Positions 1,070 through 14,675 of a stretch of DNA of 64,000 bases are shown here, piece after piece. Origin of the DNA: Thermobifida halotolerans (GTDB lineage: Bacteria; Actinomycetota; Actinomycetes; Streptosporangiales; Streptosporangiaceae). The DNA lies in the NCBI RefSeq assembly GCF_003574835.2, contig NZ_CP063196.1, positions 682,001 to 746,000 on the forward strand, given 5' to 3'. Under the pieces are notes generated by a model that had not been told where the DNA came from, did no database searches, and was given only the letters and a program-made list of their open reading frames with translations. A program made the position numbers and the translations under genes. Numbering within the stretch: position 1 is the first letter of the stretch; every line of letters begins with the position of its first letter.

Positions 1070-4000
1070 TCAGGTCAGCAGCCGCAGCGCCTCCAGGGCT
1101 CTGCCGCGCACCAGCACGTCGTGGAAGTTCTGGTTGCGGTAGGTGCGCAGGCAGCTGTAGCAGGAGGTCTCCTCGCCGCAGTCGCAGCTCTCCACCCGCT
1201 TGACGGCGGCCAGCAGCACGGCGTCGAACGCCTCGGCGATGCGGGTGGCGCCGCCCGCGCCGCCGGGCACCGTGTCGAACAGCACCAGGCTCGTGGTTCC
1301 TCCGGAGCGGTGGAACAGGGCGCCGTCGATGTCGTCGCGGCTGATCTCCAGCGCGGCTGATGCTCCTTCCAGCAGCGCGTACAGCAGTGAGTAGCGGGTC
1401 GCGGTCGAGGCGCTGTCGACGTGGAACCTGCCGCCGAAGGCGATGTCGACGATGTCGGTCTCGTACTTGTGGCCCAGCGCCAACCGGCTGAGCGGCCCGG
1501 TGCAGGAGCGGTCCCTGAGCGGGTGGGTGTGTTCGGCGGGTCTGCGCTGGGCCACGCTGCCGCCCCACCCGCACCATTCGCAGATCCAGAACCTGCGTCC
1601 CGACGGTCCGTCGGAGAGCGCGACCAGTTCGCCGCGGCTTCCGGCCAGGCAGGACACCTCGCCGCCGCCCGGCAGCGGCCACCGGTGTTCGGCGGGGTCG
1701 GCGGCCAGGCGCAGCACGTGGGTGGAGCCGTGCCAGGAGCGTTGCGGCGGGGTGGTTCCGGCCGGTTCCACCTTGGTCGCGGCCACGAACCCGAACTCCG
1801 GGACGCAGTACACGGCGGGGGAGCCGGAGTCGGCCGCGCCGCACGCCGCGCACGCGGGGGCCAGCCGCTCGGTGTCCTCCTCGTAGTAGCCGCAGGAGGA
1901 GCACACCCGGTAGTGGAAGCGCCGCAGTTCCCGGCCGGGCAGCCGGTACACCCCGGCCGAGGTCCACTTCCTGCCGCCCGCGATGATCGCGCTGCCGGGC
2001 GCGTACTCGTAGATGGCCGAGGCGAGGTCGCGGGCCAGTTCCAGGTGGCGGCCCACCTTCTCCCCGGAGTGGTGGGTGCGCAGTTCCACGGTGTCCACCG
2101 GGAAGCCGTACTTGGGCAGCACGTTGCGGGTGGCCAGGAAGCTGAGCAGCGGACGGCGGACGATGGTGTTGACGGTCTTGCCGAACCGTTCGGCCAGGCG
2201 GTCCTCGCGCTGGTCGAACGCCTCCCGGCGGCGGCGTTCGAAGTCGGCCACGTCCTCGGCGACCTCGGTGCGCAACTGCTCCAGGTGCTCGCACAGCACC
2301 GCGACCCACCGGCCGTCGTCCACCCCGATCCCGTCGGCCACCGAGTCGGGCAGGATGCGCCGCAGCGCCGCGCTGATCTCCTCGGGCACCGGGGAGAGGA
2401 AGGCGGCGACCCGGGTGACCGGCGCGGGCTCGCCGTCCTCGCCGGGCTGGAAGAACGCGCCCACGGTGTGCCAGGTCTCCCCGGTGGCGCGGTGCCAGTG
2501 CCGGAAGAACGCGGCCAGCGCCACCGAGTGGGCGTGGCGGCGGTCGATGCGCTCGTTGGCCAGCGGCACGTAGGGGGCGCGCACCTGCCCGGCGATCATC
2601 TGCTCGGGCTCCTGGTAGCGGAACATGTCGTGGGAGCGGCGCTGGGCGTGGGTGACCACCAGCGCGGCGGAGTCGGTGCGCCGTCCGGCGCGTCCGGCCC
2701 GCTGCACGTAGTTGGCGGTGGTGGGCGGCATGTTGCGCAGGAACACCGACTGCAGTTCGCCCACGTCCACGCCGAGTTCGAAGGTGGTGGAGCACGACAG
2801 GGCGTTGGTCCGGCCGTCGATGAAGTCCTGTTGGATGCGGGCGGCCTCGGTGCTCGACCACTGCGCGGTGTGCTCCTTGGCCTCCAGCGTCACCGGGGTG
2901 AGGGAGCGGTACAACTGCCGGTAGTGGTCGTCGTCGTGTTCGGGGGCGGGCGGCGTGAACGGGTGCAGGGTGCCGCGGCAGTTGATGGTGGGGCACACTC
3001 CGCGCACCGACACCGGGTGCAGGCGTCGGCAGCTGTCGCACTGGTAGGACGGGGTGTGCGCGCTGACCGGGGCCAGCAGCAGGGCGGTGTGGTCGACCTG
3101 CCAGACCGTGCCGAGGACGCGCTCGGTGCTCGAACACAGCCAGCCCTCGGCGTCGCGTCCGCTGCTCAGCTCGGTCAGCAGTTTCCACACGCCGCGCAGG
3201 GTCTTTTCGGGGGTGAGGGAGGGGTCGGCGGTGTCGAGTTTCTCCAGCAGTCGCTCCAGGTAGTCGGAGCGGCGGTTGCGGCCCTGGCCCGGAAGCCAGG
3301 AGATCACCTTGCGTTTGCGATCGGCGCCGCTTTCGCGCACGTAGATGGGGCCGAGCCGGGGCGCGAACGCCTCGTCGTCGGCGGCGACGTCCTCGGGCAT
3401 GGTCAGCGCGCCCTGCTGGCGCAGGGTGCGCACCAGTTCGCCGAGCAGGTCCCACGCCTCGTCCTCGGTCAGGCCCAGCAGGCCGGTCAGCGCCGGGGGC
3501 AGCCGCACGCCTTCGGGGCGTTCCATGTGGACGCGGAGCAGTCCGCGCCCCTCCAGCGACTGCCGGTCGTCGGTGGCCACCAGTTCCCGCATCACCCACG
3601 GCTCCACGGTGCGGCGGCGCTCCTGTTTGGAGACGCGCCGCTCGAAGTATCCGGCGCGGGCGGCCTGTCGCGCGGTGTGTTCGACCAGGTCGTCGACCCG
3701 GAACTCGTCGTCCGGGTCGAAGCCGCGTTCCAGCCCGTCGAGGAGGAGCCGCCGCTGCTGCAGCAGCCCGTAGCTGCCCTCCAGGTAGGGGGCGAAGAAC
3801 GCGGCGGCCTGGCGGCTGTCGCTGAACATGAGGAGTTTGCGGCCGCCGCCGGGCCGGTCGGCCACGGCGGGGTCGGGGTCTTCGGGCAGCGCCTGGTACA
3901 GGGCGGTGGCCACCACGGCGGCGGCGGCCTCGTTGCCGCTCTCCAGGCGGCGGACCATGTCGGCGCCGCGGGCGCCGCAGGACAGGCAGCCGCTGGGGCG

Positions 4001-5749
4001 GCCGTGGCGGGTGCTGAGGATGCGGACCGTGCGCAGTGACCGGCCGACACACGTGTCAGTGCAGGTGACCGTCTTTCCCGAGTTCAGTGCGCCGCAGCCC
4101 GCGCACAACCGGTGCTCCTCGAACGTGGTGGCGGCGCTTTCCTCTTCGAGGGTGTCGTCGTCATCGTCGACGACGACCGGGTCGCTGCCCAGGTGCACCC
4201 AGATGGCCTGTTCTCTCGGGGTGCGCTGGGGGCGCAGCCGCGTGGTGGTGCCCACCGGTTCGCGTCCGCCCACCAGGTAGGTGTCGCCGCAGCGTTTGCA
4301 GGCGGCGATTTCGAACGCGGGAGCCTGGCAGTCGGGGCAGTGCTCGTGTCGGGAGAGGAAGACGTGCGGCCCGGACAGGCAGGCGAACGCGCCGTCGGTG
4401 GCGCGGGTGAACAGGTGGTAGCGCGCCGACAGCAGGGGATCGCCGTCGTCGCGGACGCTGCTGCCCAGGGCGACCATGGCGGCCAGCGCGGTGACCCGGT
4501 CGCGGCCGGTGGCGTCGGGGTCGTCGGCGAAGAGCCTGGCGGCCAGCGACTCCAGCGGCTGCGGTCCGCCCTCGGCGAGCAGGGCGCGCAGCTTCCGCAT
4601 GCGCTTCTCCGCGGCCAGGGCGTGGTAGGCGCTGTCATCGGAGGCCCCGTGGCGGCGGGCGGCGGCGGCCAGTGCGGCCTCGGGGTCGGCTGAGCGGCCG
4701 ACCGCGGTGTATTCGGCAGCCGGCAGCGGCCCCCACGGCTCGCCCGGGGGGTCGGTGCGGCGGGTGGCGCTGACCAGGTCCTGGCGGTCGGGGTCGGTGG
4801 CGTCCCACTCGAACGGCGCGCCGAAGAACAGGCGGGAGGCGAACGTCATGACCGCTTCGGGGTTGTCGCCGACGGTGGCGCTGGTGGCGATGCACTGCAA
4901 CGGCTGGCCGGGGGCGACCCGGTCGCGCAGGCGGCGCAGCAGCATCGCGAGTTCGGCGGCCTTGGCGCCGTCGTAGACGTGGGCTTCGTCGAGTGCGACG
5001 AAGCGCCAGTGTCCGGCGTGCTCGCCCTCGAACAGGTCGAGGTCGGCGGGGCGCAGCAGCAGGTACTCCAGCATCGCGTAGTTGGTGAGCAGCAGGTGCG
5101 GCGGCCTGCGCCGCATCTGCTCGCGGCTGATGAGTTCGTTGGGCGGCGGCTCCTGGCCGTGCAGGGCGCGGAACGCCTCCAGTGCCTGCTGCCGGGTCTC
5201 CTTGGTCTCGCCGGTGTAGCGGCCGAAGGTGATGTGCGGGCTGGCGCCGAGTAGTTCCCGCAGCCGTTTGAGCTGGTCGTTGGCGAGCGCGTTCATCGGG
5301 TAGAGCAGGATCGCGCGCACTCCCGGCCCCAGCTCGCCGCGCCGGTGCTGCTCTTCCAGCTCGTTGAGGATCGGCACCAGGAAGCTCTCGGTCTTGCCCG
5401 ATCCGGTGCCGGTGGCCACCACGAGGTTGCGTCCGGCGCGGGCCTTGCGGATCGCCTGTTCCTGGTGCAGGTAGAGGGGGCGGTCCAGGTGGATGGCGGG
5501 GCCGTCGGGTGCGGTGAACCCGGCCGACAGCACCCCCTCGGCGACGAGTTGGCGCGGGGTGGCGCCGGTCCGGTAGGGCGGAGTGGCCTCCAGCAGCGGC
5601 CCCTTGGTCAGCAGCGGGCTGGCGCTGATCTGCGCGTTGAGGGCGCGGGCGAGGGCGGGATCGCGCAGCGGCAGCAGGGAGCGCAGGTAGCGGCGGTAGC
5701 TGTCGCTGATCAGGGTGCTGACGGCGATGGGGTCCAGGGTGGTGGTCAC
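1070..5749 (-). CDS. DEAD/DEAH-box helicase with C-terminal DUF1998-type domain, putative defence helicase
   Basis: A 1559-residue superfamily 2 helicase. Visible motifs in order: Walker A (ATGTGSGKTESF, about residue 110), DEAH box (LDEAHVYDGAK, about 250), motif III (ATSATVGD), paired CxxC groups suggesting zinc binding (CPDCQ, CKRCGD, CAGCG, CLSCG, CDSC), motif V (STTFELGVDVG), motif VI (YVQRAGRAGRR), and a C-terminal cysteine cluster (CDCGEETSCYSCLRTYRNQNF) typical of DUF1998 proteins. Such helicases occur in DISARM (DrmA/DrmB), Druantia (DruE) and the MrfA/Hrq1 repair group. The start is a GTG that overlaps the stop of the upstream gene by 4 bp (GTGA), so translation is probably coupled. 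Helicase assignment is secure; a role in phage defence is inferred from its partner and neighbourhood. Confidence 0.9.
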   Translation of the reverse strand: MTTTLDPIAVSTLISDSYRRYLRSLLPLRDPALARALNAQISASPLLTKGPLLEATPPYRTGATPRQLVAEGVLSAGFTAPDGPAIHLDRPLYLHQEQAIRKARAGRNLVVATGTGSGKTESFLVPILNELEEQHRRGELGPGVRAILLYPMNALANDQLKRLRELLGASPHITFGRYTGETKETRQQALEAFRALHGQEPPPNELISREQMRRRPPHLLLTNYAMLEYLLLRPADLDLFEGEHAGHWRFVALDEAHVYDGAKAAELAMLLRRLRDRVAPGQPLQCIATSATVGDNPEAVMTFASRLFFGAPFEWDATDPDRQDLVSATRRTDPPGEPWGPLPAAEYTAVGRSADPEAALAAAARRHGASDDSAYHALAAEKRMRKLRALLAEGGPQPLESLAARLFADDPDATGRDRVTALAAMVALGSSVRDDGDPLLSARYHLFTRATDGAFACLSGPHVFLSRHEHCPDCQAPAFEIAACKRCGDTYLVGGREPVGTTTRLRPQRTPREQAIWVHLGSDPVVVDDDDDTLEEESAATTFEEHRLCAGCGALNSGKTVTCTDTCVGRSLRTVRILSTRHGRPSGCLSCGARGADMVRRLESGNEAAAAVVATALYQALPEDPDPAVADRPGGGRKLLMFSDSRQAAAFFAPYLEGSYGLLQQRRLLLDGLERGFDPDDEFRVDDLVEHTARQAARAGYFERRVSKQERRRTVEPWVMRELVATDDRQSLEGRGLLRVHMERPEGVRLPPALTGLLGLTEDEAWDLLGELVRTLRQQGALTMPEDVAADDEAFAPRLGPIYVRESGADRKRKVISWLPGQGRNRRSDYLERLLEKLDTADPSLTPEKTLRGVWKLLTELSSGRDAEGWLCSSTERVLGTVWQVDHTALLLAPVSAHTPSYQCDSCRRLHPVSVRGVCPTINCRGTLHPFTPPAPEHDDDHYRQLYRSLTPVTLEAKEHTAQWSSTEAARIQQDFIDGRTNALSCSTTFELGVDVGELQSVFLRNMPPTTANYVQRAGRAGRRTDSAALVVTHAQRRSHDMFRYQEPEQMIAGQVRAPYVPLANERIDRRHAHSVALAAFFRHWHRATGETWHTVGAFFQPGEDGEPAPVTRVAAFLSPVPEEISAALRRILPDSVADGIGVDDGRWVAVLCEHLEQLRTEVAEDVADFERRRREAFDQREDRLAERFGKTVNTIVRRPLLSFLATRNVLPKYGFPVDTVELRTHHSGEKVGRHLELARDLASAIYEYAPGSAIIAGGRKWTSAGVYRLPGRELRRFHYRVCSSCGYYEEDTERLAPACAACGAADSGSPAVYCVPEFGFVAATKVEPAGTTPPQRSWHGSTHVLRLAADPAEHRWPLPGGGEVSCLAGSRGELVALSDGPSGRRFWICEWCGWGGSVAQRRPAEHTHPLRDRSCTGPLSRLALGHKYETDIVDIAFGGRFHVDSASTATRYSLLYALLEGASAALEISRDDIDGALFHRSGGTTSLVLFDTVPGGAGGATRIAEAFDAVLLAAVKRVESCDCGEETSCYSCLRTYRNQNFHDVLVRGRALEALRLLT

Positions 5750-8700
5750 GGGGTCTGCTCCTCGAACAGCCGGGCGCGTTCGGTTCCGGCGAGAGTGAGT
5801 TCGGCCAGGACAAGGTCGATGGCGGTCAGGTCGGGGGCGGCCGCGGCCAGTTCCGTCCAGGTCTGGCGGCAGCGGTCTTCCAGGCGTTGGCAGGGCCGCA
5901 CGTCCCGGGCGGCCAGGCGCGCGGTGACGGCGAGCGCGGCGGAGACGGCGGGCAGGTCGCGCCAGTCCCCGGGCCGGTCGGGGCGGCGGCTGTCGATCAG
6001 GGTGCGCGCCGCCGACCGGTAGCCGTCGGGGAGCCGGTCGCACACCGCCGAGGCCAGTTCCAGGATGGTGGCCGCCTGGGCGCGCACCCCGTGCAGTCGG
6101 GCACTGTCGCGCACCGCGAACAGGGCGAGGGCGGCCTGGCTGCGGCTGTCGGCGTCCAGCAGTGCCCGGGGCACCACCCCGGCGGCCCGCCACGCCGCCT
6201 TGACCTGCGCCTGGGGCATGCGGGCGAGGTGCTCGGCGGAGGCGTCGAAGCGTCCGACGCGGGCGTGGGGGTCGGCTTCGCCGTCCAGTAGGCGGATGGC
6301 GGTGTCTCCGCAGCTCTGTTCCAGTTCCTCCAGCAGTTCGGCGTGGTCGGGGCGCTGCCGTCCCGGGTCGCGGTGGATGCGGGGCAGAAGGTCGCTGGTG
6401 GCGAGTGCGGCGGCGGCGGGCAGGCGCTGCCACAGTTGGGCGGCCTCAACGGCGGTGACCCGGTCGTGCTGGGCGGCGGCGGCCAGGCCGCTGCTGATGA
6501 GGGTGCGGGTGCTGTCGGCGGGGGCCAGCTCGGCCGAACCGTGGGCGAGCAGCGCGGTGACGGGGAACGCGCCGAGCGCGCGGGCGCAGGCGTCGATGGT
6601 GGCTCTGTCCACTCCGGCGGCGACGAGGTGGTCGGCCAGGCCCACGACCCGCCACAGCCGTGCGGCGTTGTCGAGGGTGCCGCGCAGTCGGGAGGCGCTG
6701 GCGTCCCCGGCGAGGACGCGGGAGAGCAGCACCTCCTCGGGGTCGTCGGAGTGTGGGACGCCGGGGGCGGGGCAGGTGAGCCGGTTGGCGGTGCGCCGGT
6801 CGGGCCAGGTGGGCCATTCGGACACCGACCACGGGTCGTCCACGGCCAGCAGCACCTGCATCGGGCCGCCTTCGCGCAGGTCGCCGGGGAGTGGGATGCG
6901 TCCGGTGGTGGAGACCGACACGATCGCGGGGGGCCGCCACGGCGCGTGGTGGGGGTAGAGGGCCGCGTTGACTCCGCTCATGTCGGGGAAGCCGTCGAGG
7001 ACGATCTCGCCGTTCTCCCAGTGCGCCCCGGTGGCCAGTCTGCGCGGGCTGACCACGGCGACGGGCAGGATCGTCTCCCGGTAGGGGGCGACGATCCGCA
7101 GGTGGCGGTGGGCGGCGGCGGTGTCGCCGATCTGGGCGAGGGGGTAGCGGATCGTGGCGCCGCCCCGGTGGGGTGCGGGCTCCACCCGCTGCACGATGTC
7201 CTCGCCGGAGATCACCGACAGGGGGCCGGGCAGTCCTTTTGTCTCCTCCCCCTCGGGGAGGCGGATGAGCAGGTCTCCGGCCTCGGTGACGGTTTCGGCG
7301 TCCAGGCGCAGCGGCTGGGGCCGCCACTGGGGGTGGGCGTCGCCGGTGCACAGCACGGCCAGGTGGGGCGGGCGGACGGTGACGGCCAGTTCGGCGGCCG
7401 CGGTGCGCAGCCGCGCCGACATCGCCGCCTCGGCGGAGCCGAGCCGCTGGGCCTCCGGTTCGACGGCCAGCCCGGCGGGTCCGGCCAGGGCGACGTCCGC
7501 GGGTTCCAGTCCGGCGGGGGTCAGCGACCGGAAGGCGGGGGTGGAGCGGGCGGTGAGCCCCTCGGTGACGGTGACGTGGCGGCGCAGACCGCGGCCGAGC
7601 GGGCCGCGCGCGACGAGCAGGAACGAGCCCAGCACCGGGCGGGGCAGGCGCTCCAGCGGGCTGACCCGCCCGCCGCTGCGGGCGGTCGCGGTGGCCAGCA
7701 GGCGTCCGGTGTCGGCGTCCAGCACGTCGACGTGCCACTCCACCGCCTCGCCCTCGGCCTCGGGCAGCACCACCACGGGCAACTCGGCGTGGACGGGAGA
7801 GCCGGACGCGGTGCTCACCCCGCGCACGGGCGCGGCCTGGTCGAGGTGGGGGCGGGCGCGGCCGTGCGCGGTGTGTCGGGGGCAGCCGTCCAGGCCGATC
7901 CACTCGGCGCGGCGCAGGGTGACTTGCCGCAGTGTCCAGCCCTCCCACCCGTAGGGGGCGTCGCCGAGCAGGTCGTCGGCGTCGTCGCCGGAGCGCAGGA
8001 GCGGGCGGTCGGCCGGGTGCAGCAGCCACAGGCGGCCGGGCGGCAGCGCGAGCCGGGGGTCGAGCGGGTCGCCGTCGTCGGTGAAGACCAGCAGCGGGTC
8101 CTCGGGGTCGACCAGGGGCAGGCGTTCGGTGAACCCGGTGTCGCCGAGTTCCACGCGGACGGTGCGGCTGGGCGCGGGCAGCGGGAACAGGGTGGGGGCG
8201 GCGGTGCCCGCGGCGGCGGCCCACCGGCCGTGGCCGCGCACCTGGTGGACGCCGCTGTCGGTGGTGATGCGCCAGCGCACGATGGAGTCGTCGCTGTCGC
8301 CGATGACGGGCAGCGCCACGTGCACGCCGTGCGCGTGGGGGTCCAGGCGCAGCCGGGGCCGGGCGGGGCGGTGGTGCCGGGCGGTGGTGGGCCGTGCGGT
8401 GGGGGCGCCCCTCTCGGCGGCTCGCTCCAGGGCCCGGTGGGCGGGGGTGAGGAACCGCGGCGGCAGGCCCACGGAGCGGCAGTCGGCGTCGGGGTCGTCG
8501 CGGAGCCGGTCGAGCAGGTCGAGGCAGCGGTCGACGACCTCCAGCGCGTAGTCGCCGCCCTCGGTGATGAATCGCCGCGCGGGCACGTCCAGGCTGTTGA
8601 GGCGGTGCCGTCCGGAGACGGCCCAGTGGTGGAAGGCGGGGGCGTCCAGGCCGGGGGTGCGAATGGTGCGTTCCAGTAGCAGGGCGAACACGTCGTCCAG

Positions 8701-9144
8701 GCAGTAGGTGGGGATGCCCGCGTGCATCAGGATCGGCGTGACGTAGGGGAAGTGTTCGTTGGGGAAGGTGTCCAGCCCCAGCAGTGCCAGGGAGCGGAGA
8801 AACGTCCCGCCCCACAGGTTGGCGTCCTGCCGGGAGTCGGGAACCTCGGCGATGCTCCACAGCGCGGGCCAGAACGCGCCGTGGGAGTAGTGCTCGACGG
8901 CGACGCCGGTGGTGACGGCGGCCACGCACGCGGGCCAGCGGGCCAGGTGGGGGTCGCGGCCCCGGTCGAGGGCTTGGGTGAGGACGCGGCCGAGCGCGAC
9001 TGCGGCCTGCTCCAGGCGTTTCTGGGGCAGTGCGGCTTCGCAGACGAGGGAGTGCGACTCCAGGCGGGGCCGCCATTCGGCTTCGCGGATGTCGAGGAGT
9101 TGGGTGGGGGTGACCTTCCGGGGCTGCCGGTCGGGGGAGGGCAT
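5746..9144 (-). CDS. Large protein of unknown family, partner of the DUF1998 helicase
   Basis: A 1132-residue protein I cannot assign. The N-terminal 270 residues look helical and contain Trp- and His-rich stretches. The middle, about 300–800, alternates short hydrophobic strands with Gly/Pro turns and looks beta-sandwich-like. The C-terminal 300 residues look helical again. No nuclease, ATPase or methylase motif is evident. The ATG at 9144 is preferred over one at 9237: it has GGAG about 7 nt upstream, while the 9237 ATG lies on the -10 box of the promoter. Its last codons overlap the helicase gene, so the two form one operon. Druantia type III also pairs one large uncharacterised protein (DruH) with a DUF1998 helicase (DruE), but I cannot show homology from the sequence alone. 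Confidence 0.75.
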   Translation of the reverse strand: MPSPDRQPRKVTPTQLLDIREAEWRPRLESHSLVCEAALPQKRLEQAAVALGRVLTQALDRGRDPHLARWPACVAAVTTGVAVEHYSHGAFWPALWSIAEVPDSRQDANLWGGTFLRSLALLGLDTFPNEHFPYVTPILMHAGIPTYCLDDVFALLLERTIRTPGLDAPAFHHWAVSGRHRLNSLDVPARRFITEGGDYALEVVDRCLDLLDRLRDDPDADCRSVGLPPRFLTPAHRALERAAERGAPTARPTTARHHRPARPRLRLDPHAHGVHVALPVIGDSDDSIVRWRITTDSGVHQVRGHGRWAAAAGTAAPTLFPLPAPSRTVRVELGDTGFTERLPLVDPEDPLLVFTDDGDPLDPRLALPPGRLWLLHPADRPLLRSGDDADDLLGDAPYGWEGWTLRQVTLRRAEWIGLDGCPRHTAHGRARPHLDQAAPVRGVSTASGSPVHAELPVVVLPEAEGEAVEWHVDVLDADTGRLLATATARSGGRVSPLERLPRPVLGSFLLVARGPLGRGLRRHVTVTEGLTARSTPAFRSLTPAGLEPADVALAGPAGLAVEPEAQRLGSAEAAMSARLRTAAAELAVTVRPPHLAVLCTGDAHPQWRPQPLRLDAETVTEAGDLLIRLPEGEETKGLPGPLSVISGEDIVQRVEPAPHRGGATIRYPLAQIGDTAAAHRHLRIVAPYRETILPVAVVSPRRLATGAHWENGEIVLDGFPDMSGVNAALYPHHAPWRPPAIVSVSTTGRIPLPGDLREGGPMQVLLAVDDPWSVSEWPTWPDRRTANRLTCPAPGVPHSDDPEEVLLSRVLAGDASASRLRGTLDNAARLWRVVGLADHLVAAGVDRATIDACARALGAFPVTALLAHGSAELAPADSTRTLISSGLAAAAQHDRVTAVEAAQLWQRLPAAAALATSDLLPRIHRDPGRQRPDHAELLEELEQSCGDTAIRLLDGEADPHARVGRFDASAEHLARMPQAQVKAAWRAAGVVPRALLDADSRSQAALALFAVRDSARLHGVRAQAATILELASAVCDRLPDGYRSAARTLIDSRRPDRPGDWRDLPAVSAALAVTARLAARDVRPCQRLEDRCRQTWTELAAAAPDLTAIDLVLAELTLAGTERARLFEEQTP

Positions 9145-9232: not shown

Positions 9233-9262
9233 AACATAGGCTGATGGTGAAAACATTGTCAA
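9233..9262 (-). promoter_or_regulatory. Sigma-70-type promoter of the helicase operon
   Basis: On the minus strand a perfect -35 TTGACA (9262–9257) and a -10 TATGTT (9238–9233) are separated by 18 bp. Transcription would start near 9226, about 80 nt before the chosen ATG at 9144. A GGAAC-N5-GTTCC inverted repeat at 9201–9215, just inside the transcript, could be an operator. A consensus -35 is uncommon in such GC-rich DNA. Confidence 0.6.
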
Positions 9263-9420: not shown

Positions 9421-9689
9421 GCAATTGACCATCGGCTGTCTCCGTTCGTCTGTTCAGCGGTGATTGGCCACACCGATGCGGAGAGGTCACCGGCGGGGTG
9501 GTGGTCCGGGGGATTCCACGGCTCGTCCGTGTGGCCGGTGTGCTTCTGGCTTTTCCGTCGGTGGCGGCGCCCCACTCCTGCGCCTGCACAGGGGGATTCG
9601 TTGAAAGCGCACCGGCCACCACCGGGACTCCCGGGCTCCTGTTCAGCGGGGCGGGGGCCAGACGGGGTGGGCGGGCTGGGGTGGTGTCG

Positions 9690-10113
9690 GGTTGTTCGGT
9701 GAGGGCTTGTTCCACGGCTTGGGCGGGGGCGTGCAGGGCCACGGTGCGGCCGTCGGGATCGGTGGCGATGACGGCGCGCACGGTGGAGCCGTCCAGGGAG
9801 CTGGTGCCGCGCAGGGGCGGGGGTGCGGGTGCGCCGAGGCCGGTGAGGACGGCGCGCACGCAGGCCAGGTCGCGCGGTTGGGTGCGGCCGGACTCGATGC
9901 GCGAGATCGTGGACTGGGTCAGGCCGGCCAACCGGGCGATGTGCTCCTGGGGGATGGGGGTGAGAGCGCAGGCCAGGCGGATGAGGGCGGTGAAAGGCGG
10001 GCCACGGCGGGGTGGTTCCAGAACGCCTCGGGGAAGACGGGGTGGGTGGGGTCGAGTTCGCGGGCGGTGATGGCGGCCTCGATGGCGGCGCGGGTGGTCA
10101 GCGGTGCGGGCAC
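9690..10113 (-). pseudogene. XRE-family helix-turn-helix regulator, frameshifted
   Basis: Reading from a GTG at 10113 (AGGAAA upstream), the first 40 codons give a plausible N-terminus containing FPEAFWNHPAVAR. The remainder continues in another frame with FTALIRLACALT, then IPQEHIARLAGLTQSTISR and IESGRT, a clear XRE helix-turn-helix. The join near 10000 lacks the linker normally seen in this family (HPAVARAL..RDF), which points to a small deletion that shifted the frame. The second frame then runs on, without a stop, antisense to no recognisable domain and into the next gene region, so the true end is unclear. Intact relatives are DNA-binding regulators. Here it is probably dead, unless the shift is a sequencing error. 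Confidence 0.55.
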
Positions 10114-10152
10114 GGGCGGTTTCCTGGGGTTGGTGCGGTCGGGTGGCGGGTG

Positions 10153-10322
10153 GTGTTTCGGCCGCGAGGCGCGGCAGCTTTCACCTCTCCAGGGGGTGGG
10201 GGAGGGATGGGGATGGTGCCCGCAGCCGAGGGGGCGGCAGAAGCCCGAGCGCACACGGGCCTTTCCATCCCTCCGGAACCCGGAGCCCAGGTGGGGGGTG
10301 CCGGGCCTCCCGGCCGAAACAC
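10153..10322. repeat. 170-bp palindromic element (MITE- or REP-like)
   Basis: GTGTTTCGGCCGCGAGGC at 10153–10170 matches the reverse complement of 10305–10322 at 17 of 18 positions. Sequence inside these arms (CACCT near 10182, GGGAGGGATGG near 10200) also pairs imperfectly with the segment at about 10265–10293. No coding gene is seen inside or elsewhere in 10114–10580. Confidence 0.45.
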
Positions 10323-10582
10323 ATCCCGTCGGGTAGCCGCAGGCCCGAACCCCCGACCGGAAGCGCGGACTGCGGGCGTCGAGAACATCGAGGTCTGAGG
10401 GGGTCAGGCGGCCAGGTCGGGGGCTCCCCGACGGCACCGTGTGCGTGTGGCGGGCCGAGGGGGATCGGCGGGCAGGACCGCGCCCGGGTGTTCCGTGCGC
10501 TCACGACAGAAGAGCGGCGCGGACCTCTGCGACCTCGTCCCCGCCAAGGTTCAGTAGACCCGGGTGACGACGGTCTTCTCGG

Positions 10583-10870
10583 TGGAGACCAGGTAATCCT
10601 TCGGTGACGGGGGTGCGCGTGTGCACCATGCACTCCCTCAAGGGCCTGGAGTTCCGCTGCGCGCCGTGGCGGGGGTGAGCGGCGGGACGATCCCCCACCC
10701 CAGGGCGATCACCCCCGAAGACGTCGAGCCGATCCAGCACGCCACCGACCTGCCGGCCGAACGCTGCCTGCTCTTCGTCGCCTGCACCCGGGCCCGCGAC
10801 CGGTTGTCCGTCTCCTGGCACGGTCGGCCCAGCGAGTTCCTCGTCGCGGCGGGGATCGCACGAGTCCAGG
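10583..10870 (+). pseudogene. C-terminal fragment of a UvrD/Rep-type helicase, frameshifted
   Basis: Frame one reads VRVCTMHSLKGLEFRC, which is motif V of superfamily 1A helicases. Immediately after FRC a one-base change moves the reading frame. The new frame continues AVAGVSGGTIPHPRAIT, then HATDLPAERCLLFVACTRAR and DRLSVSWHGRPSEFL, the standard motif VI region and end of UvrD-like proteins. No upstream ATPase motifs (Walker A or B) are present, so this is only the tail of a gene about ten times longer. It lies next to the broken XRE regulator and the palindromic element, all signs of a decayed mobile or defence region. Confidence 0.65.
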
Positions 10871-11532
10871 CCCCGCCTCCGCATCGCGGTGACGGCGTTC
10901 CGCGAGCACAAGAAGGAAATCCCCTGTCGGAAGGCGGACGCAGGGTACAGACGGCCGTTGCCGGCGGCACGAACCCCTGCGACCCGGTGATCACGCCGAC
11001 GGACAGGACGGAGGCGCTGCGCCTACGGCGAGAGGTACACGTCCCGCGGTTTCCGGTGCGGCACCTGGTCGGGAGGCCGCGGAACAAATCCACGACCAGG
11101 AATCGGCACGGTCTGCGTCCCCACTTCACGCACTGTCCGGAAAACGACCGACCGTCCGCTCCTTTCGCCTCCGTCTCCCCGGACATCCGATAACACGGGG
11201 GTGCGCTGGCGGCGCTGGTTCTCCCCGCCGCCGCGGTGGTGACAGCATCGGCTGTTCGGCGGCGATGAGTTCAGGAGTTACCCCGACAACGGCACGCGCC
11301 GCGCCGCCTCCCGCCCGCTGTGCGGACAGCACGGCGTCACCGACCGGCGGGTCCGAGGCGAAAGCGGGAGAGCGTTTCGTACCCGCCGGGAGACGATTAC
11401 GGTCATACCGTTTTGGCGAGGGGGATACCGGAGGCCGGGCCAATGCGACGGAAACGGCGGTACGACTTCCTCGGTGGGAATAGGATCGTCGTGAACACAG
11501 CACTTTCCGCCCATCCGAGGAGTGTGTGACAG
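10871..11532. other. Intergenic, no supported gene
   Basis: Open frames here have no recognisable domain or ribosome-binding site. A perfect inverted repeat ACGGT-CAT-ACCGT lies at 11399–11411 and a -10-like TAGGAT near 11480. Both may belong to the regulatory region of the methyltransferase gene starting at 11533. Confidence 0.4.
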
Positions 11533-12384
11533 GTGTCCGAATCGGTTCCCTCCCTCCCTGTCGAAATCCGCACAGACCAGCCCACAGTCGCACGTATCTA
11601 CGACTACGGAATGGGCGGCAAGGACAACTTCGAGATCGACCGGCAGGCCGCGCTCTCCCTGGTCAAGGTCTCACCGGAGATGCTCGACGTCGCGAGGGAG
11701 AACCGCCTCTTCCTCTACCGCGCGGTGCGCTACCTCGCCCGCGAGGCGGGAATCCGCCAGTTCATCGACATGGGCAGCGGAATGCCGACCAAGGACAACG
11801 TGCACCAGGTCGCCCAGGCGTTCCAGCCCGACGCCAGGGTCGTCTACATCGACATCGACCCCATCGTGCTGGCGCACGGGCGCGCGATCCTCGCCGACAA
11901 CCCCAACACCACGGTGATCACGGCCGACATGGCCAGATCCGACGAGATCCTCGCCAGCAAGGAGCTGCGCTCCCTCATCGACTTCGACGAACCGGTCGCC
12001 CTGCTGTACTTCTCCGTCCTGCACTGCCTGCCGGACGAGGCCGACCCCAGGGGCGCGCTGTGGACCCTGCTCGACGCGGTCCCCTCCGGCAGTCACCTCG
12101 CCGTCTCCCACCTGTGCAGCGACGACGTGGCGGCGGGCGACGCCTTCACCGAGGGGATGCTCGCCCTGGGACCCTGGGGACGGGTGCGCCGCCCGGCGGA
12201 ACTGCGCGCGTTCGTCGAGGGCCTGGAGTCCGTCGAGCCGGGCATCGTCGACGTCTCCCAGTGGCGCCCCGACCCCGACCAGCCGCCCCTCAGCCCGGCG
12301 CCCGCGCCCCTGCGCCCCTACCTCGGACGCGCCACGGAGGGCAAGAAGATCTGGGAACTCGGCGGCGTCTTCCGCAAGCCCTGA
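11533..12384 (+). CDS. SAM-dependent methyltransferase, DUF574 family
   Basis: A 283-residue member of the actinobacterial S-adenosylmethionine-dependent methyltransferase family formerly called DUF574. Signature elements seen: ARIYDYGMGGKDNF near residue 25, the SAM loop FIDMGSGMPTKDNVH near 80, and VVYIDIDPIVLAHGRAIL near 105, followed by ITADMARSDEIL. Length is normal for the family, whose substrates are unknown although many copies exist per actinomycete genome. The GTG start at 11533 has GAGGAG about 10 nt upstream, and the N-terminus SVPSLPVEIRTDQPTVARIYDY matches the usual family start. It stands alone and faces a convergent gene at 12442. Confidence 0.9.
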   Translation: MSESVPSLPVEIRTDQPTVARIYDYGMGGKDNFEIDRQAALSLVKVSPEMLDVARENRLFLYRAVRYLAREAGIRQFIDMGSGMPTKDNVHQVAQAFQPDARVVYIDIDPIVLAHGRAILADNPNTTVITADMARSDEILASKELRSLIDFDEPVALLYFSVLHCLPDEADPRGALWTLLDAVPSGSHLAVSHLCSDDVAAGDAFTEGMLALGPWGRVRRPAELRAFVEGLESVEPGIVDVSQWRPDPDQPPLSPAPAPLRPYLGRATEGKKIWELGGVFRKP

Positions 12385-12441
12385 CCGCCGCCGCACACGG
12401 TCCGCCCGGGGCGCGCGGGAGCACACTCCCGCGCGCCCCGC

Positions 12442-13161
12442 TCACTGCCGCCGACGGGTCCCGTACTCCGCGCGAAGGCGCTCCTCGGCGATCGCGGCGC
12501 GGTCGGCGGCCTCCGGTGGCGGGGCCGGGCGGATGCCCGCGTCGGTGAGCATGCTCAGGTCCAGTGTCCACGTGACCCGCGACCGCTCCTCCCACACGTC
12601 GAAGGCGTCCTCGACGTGGCGGCGGGCCTGCGCCTCGGTCATGCCGGTGACCTCCCTCAGGTGCGCGAACGCCTGGGCGGCCAGGCCGCGCACCTGGGCG
12701 AGGCCGAAGTGGGTGACGGTGTGGCAGTCGGTGCACAGGCAGATCAGGCGGCGCAGGGTCTGCACGCGGGCGCGCTCGTCGTAGACCCAGCGTTCGTGCG
12801 CCTCCAGCCACCGCCGCACCGTGCGGTCCTCCCGCGCGCCGCAGATCTCGCAGCGGTGGTGGGCCCGGCGGGTGATCATCCGGCGCAGCCGCTCCCAGTC
12901 GCGGGGTTCCACGCAGGAGCGGACGTTGGTGAACCAGCAGGTGCTGGGCACCAGGTCGACGAAGAGCCCGGAGCCGAGCGAGCGGTCCTCTCCGGGCAGC
13001 AGGTCGGGAACCTCGGGTGCGGCGGCCCACCGCTCCAGTGCGGCCATGCCCGGCCGGGGCGCGTACCACCGCCTGGCCTTCGGGTCCCAGCGGGCGCCCG
13101 CCGCCTTGGCCTCGTCCTTCTCCGCGAACGGGACGTCCAGCCAGATCCGCCGGTCCGCCAT
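12442..13161 (-). CDS. DUF5710 domain protein with HNH-like zinc region
   Basis: A 239-residue protein with two parts. Residues 1–50 fit DUF5710 (WLDVPFAEKDEAKAAGARWD followed by RWYAPRP), a small module often found on DNA-processing or toprim proteins. Residues 85–160 carry a CEICG pair, LEAHERW and CLCTDCHTVTHFG, an arrangement like an HNH endonuclease-type zinc site (CxxC … H … CxxCH). Residues 160–239 look helical. Nuclease activity is possible but unproven. The second of two close ATGs (13161) sits 6 nt after GGAGGAGG and is chosen over the first at 13167, which directly abuts that site. Confidence 0.7.
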   Translation of the reverse strand: MADRRIWLDVPFAEKDEAKAAGARWDPKARRWYAPRPGMAALERWAAAPEVPDLLPGEDRSLGSGLFVDLVPSTCWFTNVRSCVEPRDWERLRRMITRRAHHRCEICGAREDRTVRRWLEAHERWVYDERARVQTLRRLICLCTDCHTVTHFGLAQVRGLAAQAFAHLREVTGMTEAQARRHVEDAFDVWEERSRVTWTLDLSMLTDAGIRPAPPPEAADRAAIAEERLRAEYGTRRRQ

Positions 13162-13253
13162 GAGCATCCTCCTCCGGACGGTTGTCCTCCCTGTCGGAAC
13201 GGCAGCCCCCGGCGACCCGGCGTGACCGGGAGGACGGGGCCGGCGGTGCCGGG

Positions 13254-13766
13254 TTATCGCCCCACCGCTCCGTCGGTCAGTTCCCGCAGGATGTCGGCGT
13301 GACCGGCGTGGCGGGCGGTCTCCTCGACCATGTGGACCAGTACCCAGCGCAGCGACGGCGGCCGCTCGTTCTCGCGCACCGAGCGCACGCCGGGGCGGTC
13401 CAGGTCGACGCAGGCGCGCACGATCTCGTTGGAGTGCCGGACCGCCTCCCGGTAGGCGGCCAGCACACTCTCGACCGTCTCCTCGGCGGTGGGCTGGAGC
13501 CGGTAGTTCCGGAACGGGGCGTCGACTCCGGCATAGGCCCAGGCGAACCAGTCGAACTCCACCGCGGTCAGGTGCTTGACCAGCCACAGCAGGCTGGTGC
13601 CGGACGGTACCCGGGGTTCGCGGGCCTGTTCCTCGGTCAGTCCCGCCAGCTTGGCGGCGACCGACTCGCGCAGGTAGTCGAGGAACGTCAACAGGGTGGT
13701 CTTCTCGTCGGTGCTGAAGCCCGGCGGACGCATGTCGCCGCGGGAGCCGACACTCGTCTCCGTCAC
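13254..13766 (-). CDS. DinB/DUF664 family protein
   Basis: A 170-residue helical-bundle protein of the DinB (DUF664) superfamily. It shows the family pattern TLLTFLDYLRESVAAKLAGL, then LLWLVKHLTAVEFDWF with the first metal-binding His, and a final LRWVLVHMVEETARHAGHAD with the paired histidines. Relatives bind a metal and some are mycothiol- or bacillithiol-dependent transferases; the substrate here cannot be told. The GTG at 13766 is the only good start in frame. It lies 92 bp upstream of the DUF5710 gene on the same strand; coupling between the two is unclear. Confidence 0.85.
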   Translation of the reverse strand: MTETSVGSRGDMRPPGFSTDEKTTLLTFLDYLRESVAAKLAGLTEEQAREPRVPSGTSLLWLVKHLTAVEFDWFAWAYAGVDAPFRNYRLQPTAEETVESVLAAYREAVRHSNEIVRACVDLDRPGVRSVRENERPPSLRWVLVHMVEETARHAGHADILRELTDGAVGR

Positions 13767-14169
13767 GCCGCGACACTACCCGACTGGCGAGGTCTGCCCG
13801 GCTGGGTAGGCGGAACCGGCAGGGATCCCGTTTCGACGTCGGCGTCCCACGCCAACGAATCTACGCCGCAAAGGTGGCATTACGGACATTCGGTGTCAGG
13901 GTTGACGGGCGCGCCGTCCAACTCAGCAGGAGCCACCGCAGCACCCGGAAGACCCTCATCCGGTCGGGAGCCCGGTGGACGGCCGGTCCGTGGCGGGACC
14001 GGTCGAGACGCGGTGGCCGCAACCGGCCACCGGGAGGCGCCTCCGCGGGCGGGACGCCGTCGGGGCGGTTCCACGGCCGGGAGCGCGGGGCGGCCTCTCG
14101 CGGACACCGCGTTAGGGTCATCCGGAAGCGGCGGACACCGGTACCGGACACCTGGGCCGACTGGCCGCG
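13767..14169. other. Intergenic, no supported gene
   Basis: No reading frame here shows a domain, a ribosome-binding site or convincing codon use. The region probably holds the promoters of the diverging genes on each side. Confidence 0.4.
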
Positions 14170-14675
14170 TTGACGCGCCTGGCCGTGGCGACGTCGCTGG
14201 TCGGCTGCTGCGCGGTGGCGATGACGGTGGCGTTGGTGCTGGCCTGGGAGTCCCTGGGAGACCTGCTTCTCCTGGACGGCCGCGTCTATCTGTCCCGCGG
14301 GGTCCTGGTGGGCCTCGCCGTGGCGGGCCCCCGGTGCTGGTCGGAGCGTGGTTGCTGAGCTGCTGGCTGCTGCACCGTCTCGACGGAGGCGGTGGGTTCC
14401 GGCGGGCCCTGGTGCTCGCCACCTGCGCCCTGGTGCTCCCGGTGGGCTACATACCGGTCTCGGAGTGGCTGAGTCTGCCGTACGGCCCTCCAGGATGGGA
14501 CCTGTGGACCGTCGCGTTCTCCGGGATGCTGGCCGGCGTGGCCGGCGTCGTGCTCCGGGGGCGCCGAGTGTCGCCGGAGGCGGCCGCGATGGCGGCGGCG
14601 CTCCTGGTGCTCGCGGCGGGTGCGGCGGCAGGACAGGAGATGGTATGGGTCGGAGTGGACCTCCAGTTCCTCTAG
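14170..14675 (+). pseudogene. Small multi-pass membrane protein, one frameshift
   Basis: From a TTG at 14170 a hydrophobic frame runs TRLAVATSLVGCCAVAMTVALV through LSRGVLVGLAVAG, then stops soon after. A second frame takes over from the run of C at 14325–14330 with PPVLVGAWLLSCWLLH, ALVLATCALVLPVGYI, two further membrane segments and a stop at 14673–14675. Joined, they give about 167 residues with four to five membrane spans, resembling the N-terminal half of the next gene product. A single-base change in a homopolymer explains the break; it could be a real mutation or a sequencing error. Function unknown. Confidence 0.55.

Follow-up and report, generated by a model that had tools for sequence, protein, structure and literature searches.

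Positions 1070 to 9144 of a 64,000-nucleotide stretch of DNA of Thermobifida halotolerans, a heat-loving actinobacterium (contig NZ_CP063196.1, positions 682,001 to 746,000; hereafter the window) carry two genes on the minus strand, one for a large DUF1998 helicase and the other, upstream of it, for a large partner protein. We propose that they very probably constitute an actinobacterial Druantia type III-like (III-B) two-gene phage-defence system, composed of a DruH-like sensor and a DruE-like helicase; its mode of action, as set out below, has about an even chance of being correct. The assignment is based on sequence comparisons, namely on the gene layout, the intact motifs, the pairing of the two genes at every locus examined, the grouping of the helicase, the remote homology of the partner to DruH, and the absence of a nuclease module from the helicase. 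The roles of sensor and helicase effector are suggested by published relatives and may, with similarly balanced chances, apply here. The assignment ties a large actinobacterial family of proteins with no known domain to DruH and would make this family detectable with an updated model.

The druH-like gene lies directly upstream of the druE-like gene, which is the arrangement that characterizes type III, and the two form one translationally coupled transcript (Table 1). The original prediction had described two coupled genes behind a promoter with a consensus -35 element, and this layout was confirmed by the coordinates, by the 4-bp GTGA overlap, and by the promoter core, which reads TTGAC(A/G) at -35 and TA(T/A)GTT at -10 with unchanged spacing in the four Thermobifida genomes compared. 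The partner ATG at 9144 and the GGAG ahead of it are likewise kept in all four genomes; an ATG at 9237 was rejected as the partner start because it lies inside the -10 element and is missing from Thermobifida fusca and the relative G001. Chance open reading frames are excluded, since both frames are unbroken in all four species and the ratio of nonsynonymous to synonymous substitution rates (dN/dS) is below 1. A 4-bp overlap was also found in 8 of 19 relatives and a 17-bp overlap in one.

The prediction of a defence-type DUF1998 helicase also held. The protein matched DEAD (E 1.9e-23), Helicase_C (E 2.6e-10), and MZB (E 9.6e-15; PF09369, which is named DUF1998 in PMC13316683) in Pfam, and its best PADLOC model was DruE3 (E 8.7e-179, 595 bits), while the helicases of DISARM, Dpd, and BREX, considered as candidates, were dismissed because of far lower PADLOC scores. 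The tested motif residues of superfamily 2 (SF2) helicases and the MZB cysteines were present in this helicase and in 14 actinobacterial relatives, with T or S at position 292. The chain ends 26 residues beyond the last MZB cysteine, whereas this tail measures 387-414 residues in four type III helicases and 358-394 in three type II-like helicases from cyanobacteria; the protein therefore lacks the nuclease module. In a maximum-likelihood tree of 27 helicases, the 15 actinobacterial rows formed one clade (support 100/100), and a split supported at 100/99 placed them with the three cyanobacterial type II-like and four type III helicases, apart from five ARMADA helicases; this tree leaves the order of the three Druantia groups unresolved, drew program warnings of long branches and uneven composition, and bears Druantia type labels that we assigned from gene neighbourhoods, the Chryseobacterium row being a doubtful type III. 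With DEAD, Helicase_C, and MZB/DUF1998 and its grouping with Druantia helicases, the protein has the features by which a Druantia helicase is recognized. ARMADA was rejected as an identity, the helicase lying outside its branch at the same split, with the long branches noted.

As had been predicted, the partner contains no known domain: no match was reported in PADLOC, the filters of which drop most matches above about E 0.1, or in Pfam, NCBIfam, or PDB sequences. Escherichia coli DruH, used as a positive control, matched 10 PADLOC DruH models and the PDB chain 9tud. Profile-profile comparisons with proteobacterial DruH gave a probability of 65.5% (E 5.9e-5) with 12 sequences and 80% (E 1.3e-5) with 29, and a 55-row partner profile, in which one Mycobacterium-like protein (L081) occurs twice with different first residues, reached 87% (E 4e-6, score 65.9) against nine proteobacterial DruH proteins; the alignments were collinear at all three profile sizes. 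The reversed profile and 10 column or block shuffles scored 16.7-26.0, and 30 additional shuffles scored 27.2 at most. The N-terminal 255 residues alone gave E 0.0023 and a score of 29.6, compared with 15.3 or less in five shuffles, and aligned onto residues 35-145 of E. coli DruH, within which lies a surface (63-137) described as mutation-sensitive (PMC13192584). Taken together, these alignments provide moderate support for the partner being a remote relative of DruH.

The AlphaFold2 model of the partner (predicted local distance difference test [pLDDT] score 84.9, predicted template modelling score 0.57, domain placement uncertain) consists of helical, beta/immunoglobulin (Ig)-like, and helical parts. 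Judged by description, this predicted arrangement is the same as the helical/Ig-like/helical layout given for DruH from cryo-electron microscopy (PMC13192584). VIA-align matched residues 427-526 (Z 8.3, 79 residues) and 595-702 (Z 7.8, 96 residues) to fibronectin type III (FnIII)/Ig-like domains. For the whole partner, the matches listed by Foldseek were solely of the Ig, FnIII, and macroglobulin types, with TM-scores by query length of 0.11 or less, and those of VIA-align were similar; phage Ig-domain proteins were matched as well, and none of the matches listed by either program was DruH (9tud). A separate model of the C-terminal domain (pLDDT 90.4) had only weak helical-repeat matches among those listed, the best with Z 5.7 over 94 residues at a root-mean-square deviation of 3.7, and no nuclease was among them.

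Among known Druantia systems, the pair resembles MSMEG_1253/1254 of Mycolicibacterium smegmatis in consisting of two overlapping genes with druH first, in the length of DruH (also 1132 aa), and in a DruE with DEAD, Helicase_C, and DUF1998 that has no canonical nuclease domain according to its authors (PMC13316683); it differs in the length of DruE (1559 versus 1667 aa) and in the overlap (4 versus 17 bp). The M. smegmatis pair protects against phages, with both proteins being needed for the full effect, and it stops the circularization of phage DNA in response to a minor tail protein; DruH is toxic alone and neutralized by DruE, and the two proteins bind each other (PMC13316683), whereas no stable complex was seen for E. 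coli (PMC13192584). Five of the nine published DruE positions (K119, A292, R823, A1016, and C1516) are the same residues in a Mycobacterium-like helicase of 1668 aa. From the sizes, the overlap, and these five positions, and not from sequence identity, we infer that the same family includes the M. smegmatis pair.

The helicase is also similar to 'III-B', a Druantia III-like helicase branch set apart from canonical type III and most often without a nuclease domain (PMC12458937), in forming a separate branch and in having no nuclease; the III-B reference GIH50614.1 was outside our tree, and the available part of that preprint does not describe the III-B partner. Canonical type III of E. coli (PDB 9tu7 and 9tud) shares with the pair the gene order, the helicase motifs, most of the Cys-pair zinc motifs, and the DruH layout, and its DruH is remotely homologous to the partner. 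Unlike canonical type III, the pair has no nuclease module, a partner too diverged for PADLOC, and a helicase in a separate clade. A literature search found no paper linking Druantia with Thermobifida.

The partner was present in 13 of the 60 nearest genomes (its own included) and in all four of the genus Thermobifida, and more widely in 18/296 genomes of the class, 21/346 of a Mycobacterium-like genus, and 47/301 of a family taken, from its PE proteins, to be Mycobacteriaceae. Strong helicase matches occurred in 11 of 148 genomes, all 11 of which also carry the partner. The two genes occurred together in each of 19 fetched loci, nine picked by the helicase and ten by the partner (L002 and L043, the same place in T. 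fusca, were counted once, and G032, with fragments on two contigs, was outside this set), as well as in 21/21 Mycobacterium-like loci picked by the partner and in five additional loci, two of which (L084 and L086) have broken or incomplete helicases. A tblastn search of plasmids with the partner found nothing. The two genes adjoin in 18 of the 19 loci; in the remaining one, L036, two genes stand between them (10066-14605), an Hsp70-NYN RNase fusion and a 556-aa gene with no Pfam match, and a PglW (BREX-type) gene adjoins DruE. In L038 (1-6000), a second MZB helicase and then a UvrD/GajB-like gene are located directly upstream of the pair and resemble part of an ARMADA type II array.

The C-terminal helical domain is absent from 7 of 18 relatives in alignment A1 (L037, L039, L040, L041, L049, L050, and L051). 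Six of these short partners end near residue 702, and four of the seven are also without most of 146-347. The helicase is complete at five of the seven loci, where 29-36 residues remain beyond the MZB cysteines and the nuclease module is likewise absent, and is cut by contig ends in L050 and L051. No third gene was seen by eye to recur beside the short-partner pairs in the loci listed.

The partner shares 82% identity with the protein of T. fusca NBRC 14071. Outside Thermobifida, its identity was lower than that of the helicase in all nine full-length pairs (32-52% versus 52-69%), which matches the report that DruH is less conserved than DruE. Between T. halotolerans and three relatives, dN/dS was 0.58-0.64 in the partner gene and 0.39-0.57 in the helicase gene. 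Six flanking genes compared with T. fusca, a set that excludes 1070-6433 (the pair itself) and 6343-8679 (an antisense frame inside the partner with dN/dS 1.10), had values of 0.17-0.66, four of them 0.17-0.29; since the flanking genes reach 0.66, the pair is not unique in its fast evolution. Synonymous divergence (dS) from T. fusca was 0.21 for the partner and 0.34 for the helicase, and higher, at 0.49-0.84, for the six flanking genes, as if species had swapped the pair as a cassette at one fixed position.

If the pair acts in the manner of its relatives, the DruH-like protein would serve as the infection sensor, and a phage structural protein, such as the minor tail protein that is the trigger in M. 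smegmatis, would be recognized by the helical surface at its N terminus and by the Ig-like middle part. The DruE-like SF2 helicase would load onto the 3' single-stranded tails of phage DNA that is being replicated or recombined, and the triggered pair would block the circularization and replication of the phage genome. Coupling by a 4-bp overlap is consistent with the two proteins being required in matched amounts because M. smegmatis DruH is toxic alone and DruE neutralizes it. Since the present DruE does not have the PLD (phospholipase D) nucleases of E. coli DruE, cleavage, if it occurs, must be the work of the DruH-like protein or of host nucleases, and the helicase itself would otherwise obstruct phage DNA.

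On this point, the DruH-like protein of the same system may itself cleave DNA as the output, a mechanism proposed for dimers of E. coli DruH; we give this possibility some weight but do not expect it to prevail. Dimeric E. coli DruH nicks plasmid DNA (PMC13192584), and with no nuclease module in DruE the partner is the only encoded candidate, whereas the listed matches of the C-terminal helical domain include no nuclease and the relatives that have lost this domain still keep the pair. These short partners also lead to a more tentative and rather doubtful suggestion of a nuclease-free Druantia, with no DruE nuclease module and with many partners reduced to N-terminal helices and an Ig-like sensor core, in which helicase loading triggered by the sensor would strip or block phage DNA without a cutting enzyme of its own. 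Defence may need no nuclease of its own because 7 of 18 partners are without the C-terminal domain and five complete helicases beside such partners have no nuclease module. These natural nuclease-less and short-partner forms allow us to ask what the Druantia helicase core does without cleavage.

Several observations weigh against the assignment to Druantia, and some favour a distinct two-gene system in which a helicase of the Druantia radiation is combined with a convergent multi-Ig sensor unrelated to DruH. With the limit set at E 10, no match to PADLOC models, DruH3 included, was reported for the partner or for 46 relatives, and the profile signal, which is moderate, shrinks once the stretch is cut: residues 400-960 alone gave a probability of 1.4% and a score of 26.0 against a shuffle maximum of 19.7, residues 256-800 scored 20.1 against 16.9 or less, and the C-terminal part scored 18.6, below one shuffle at 21.7. 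The near-tie between DruE3 and DruE1 (579 bits) means that type III cannot be told from the helicase alone; the type III helicases fall outside the actinobacterial clade, the two C-terminal PLD-like domains that define canonical III-A are absent, and the tree was rooted at its midpoint with ARMADA as the only outside group. The fit of five of nine DruE positions was the highest obtained across many loci and starts, the others giving 2-4, and the published residue numbers of M. smegmatis DruH, of which at most 2 of 11 fit in 21 Mycobacterium-like partners, lend no support. Within Thermobifida, moreover, the lower conservation of the partner is not seen (77-82% for the partner versus 75-81% for the helicase; 89% versus 81% between G001 and T. 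fusca). We nevertheless regard a distinct system as improbable, given the full-length collinear profile match above every control, the separate N-terminal signal, the same domain and gene order, and the similar length (1132 versus 1119 aa). The original prediction had likened the layout to Druantia type III (DruH-DruE), which agrees with the gene order, the coupling, and the remote DruH homology. Its alternative that the proteins could define a separate system is disfavoured by the grouping of the helicase with Druantia apart from ARMADA and by a remote DruH relationship above the controls; the pair largely matches a described system, the partner through remote homology only.

The genomic setting in Thermobifida also weighs against a defence function and in favour of core genes whose products, a helicase and its partner, act in DNA repair or genome maintenance. 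The pair is at one fixed site beside core genes in all four Thermobifida genomes examined; its helicase side adjoins the same flank (FtsZ, SepF, DivIVA, a class I tRNA synthetase, and signal peptidase II, lspA) in the three other genomes, with a few extra kilobases there in T. halotolerans, and on the side of the partner a Methyltransf_19 gene has matches in T. fusca and G002. The locus shows no sign of a defence island because nine of the ten neighbours scanned had no PADLOC match and the tenth, an ABC transporter matching mad3 (E 1e-32) and mad8, is read as sharing an ATPase fold. In addition, SftH, a DUF1998 translocase of M. smegmatis, can replace DruE (PMC13316683). A repair function is nonetheless very unlikely in our view: outside the genus the pair is patchy in the class and in the Mycobacterium-like genus, the helicase groups with defence helicases, and in other hosts 9 of 10 neighbours, single genes picked by eye that do not represent a rate, match PADLOC models, including PglW, JetA, HmaC, PDC-S37, and type I methyltransferases. 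Of the pattern that would have spoken against the original prediction, the core-genome conservation without a defence island is thus seen in Thermobifida, while relatives elsewhere stand beside defence genes. The fixed copy in the four Thermobifida genomes also provides, in T. fusca, a culturable host for deletion tests.

Table 1. Features of the druH-like/druE-like locus in the window (nucleotide positions) and within the two proteins (aa positions).
Feature	Position	Strand	Details
druE-like helicase gene	1070-5749	minus	GTG start, 1559 aa
druH-like partner gene	5746-9144	minus	ATG start, 1132 aa
Gene overlap coupling partner and helicase	5746-5749	minus	GTGA, 4 bp, from sequence
Promoter	9233-9262	minus	-35 TTGACA 9262-9257, 18-bp spacer, -10 TATGTT 9238-9233
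Helix-turn-helix remnant	9641-9931	minus	HTH_31 E 2.4e-5, 25.0 bits versus cut-off 27
UvrD_C remnant	10621-11193	plus	E 0.0024, 17.8 bits versus cut-off 25.6
Helicase motifs	aa		Walker A K119; DEAH 254-257; SAT 290-292; QRAGRAGR 1016-1023
Helicase MZB/DUF1998	aa 1457-1534		Cys 1522/1524/1530/1533; additional Cys-pair zinc motifs
Partner domains (predicted, AlphaFold2)	aa		N-terminal helices about 13-244; beta/Ig-like middle about 264-790; C-terminal helices about 800-1128

The decayed helicase and regulator genes that had been noted next to the pair correspond to UvrD_C-like and HTH_31 remnants, both of which are upstream of the partner within a poorly conserved stretch; the remnants were seen, and with both below the Pfam cut-offs their identity is weakly supported. 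Further along the window, 11533-12384 encodes a Methyltransf_19 S-adenosylmethionine methyltransferase and 13254-13766 a mycothiol-S-transferase/DinB protein, each with a counterpart in T. fusca. The gene at 34-996 adjoins the helicase end, and its T. fusca counterpart (46% identical) is on the other side of the pair; therefore, the site has been rearranged.

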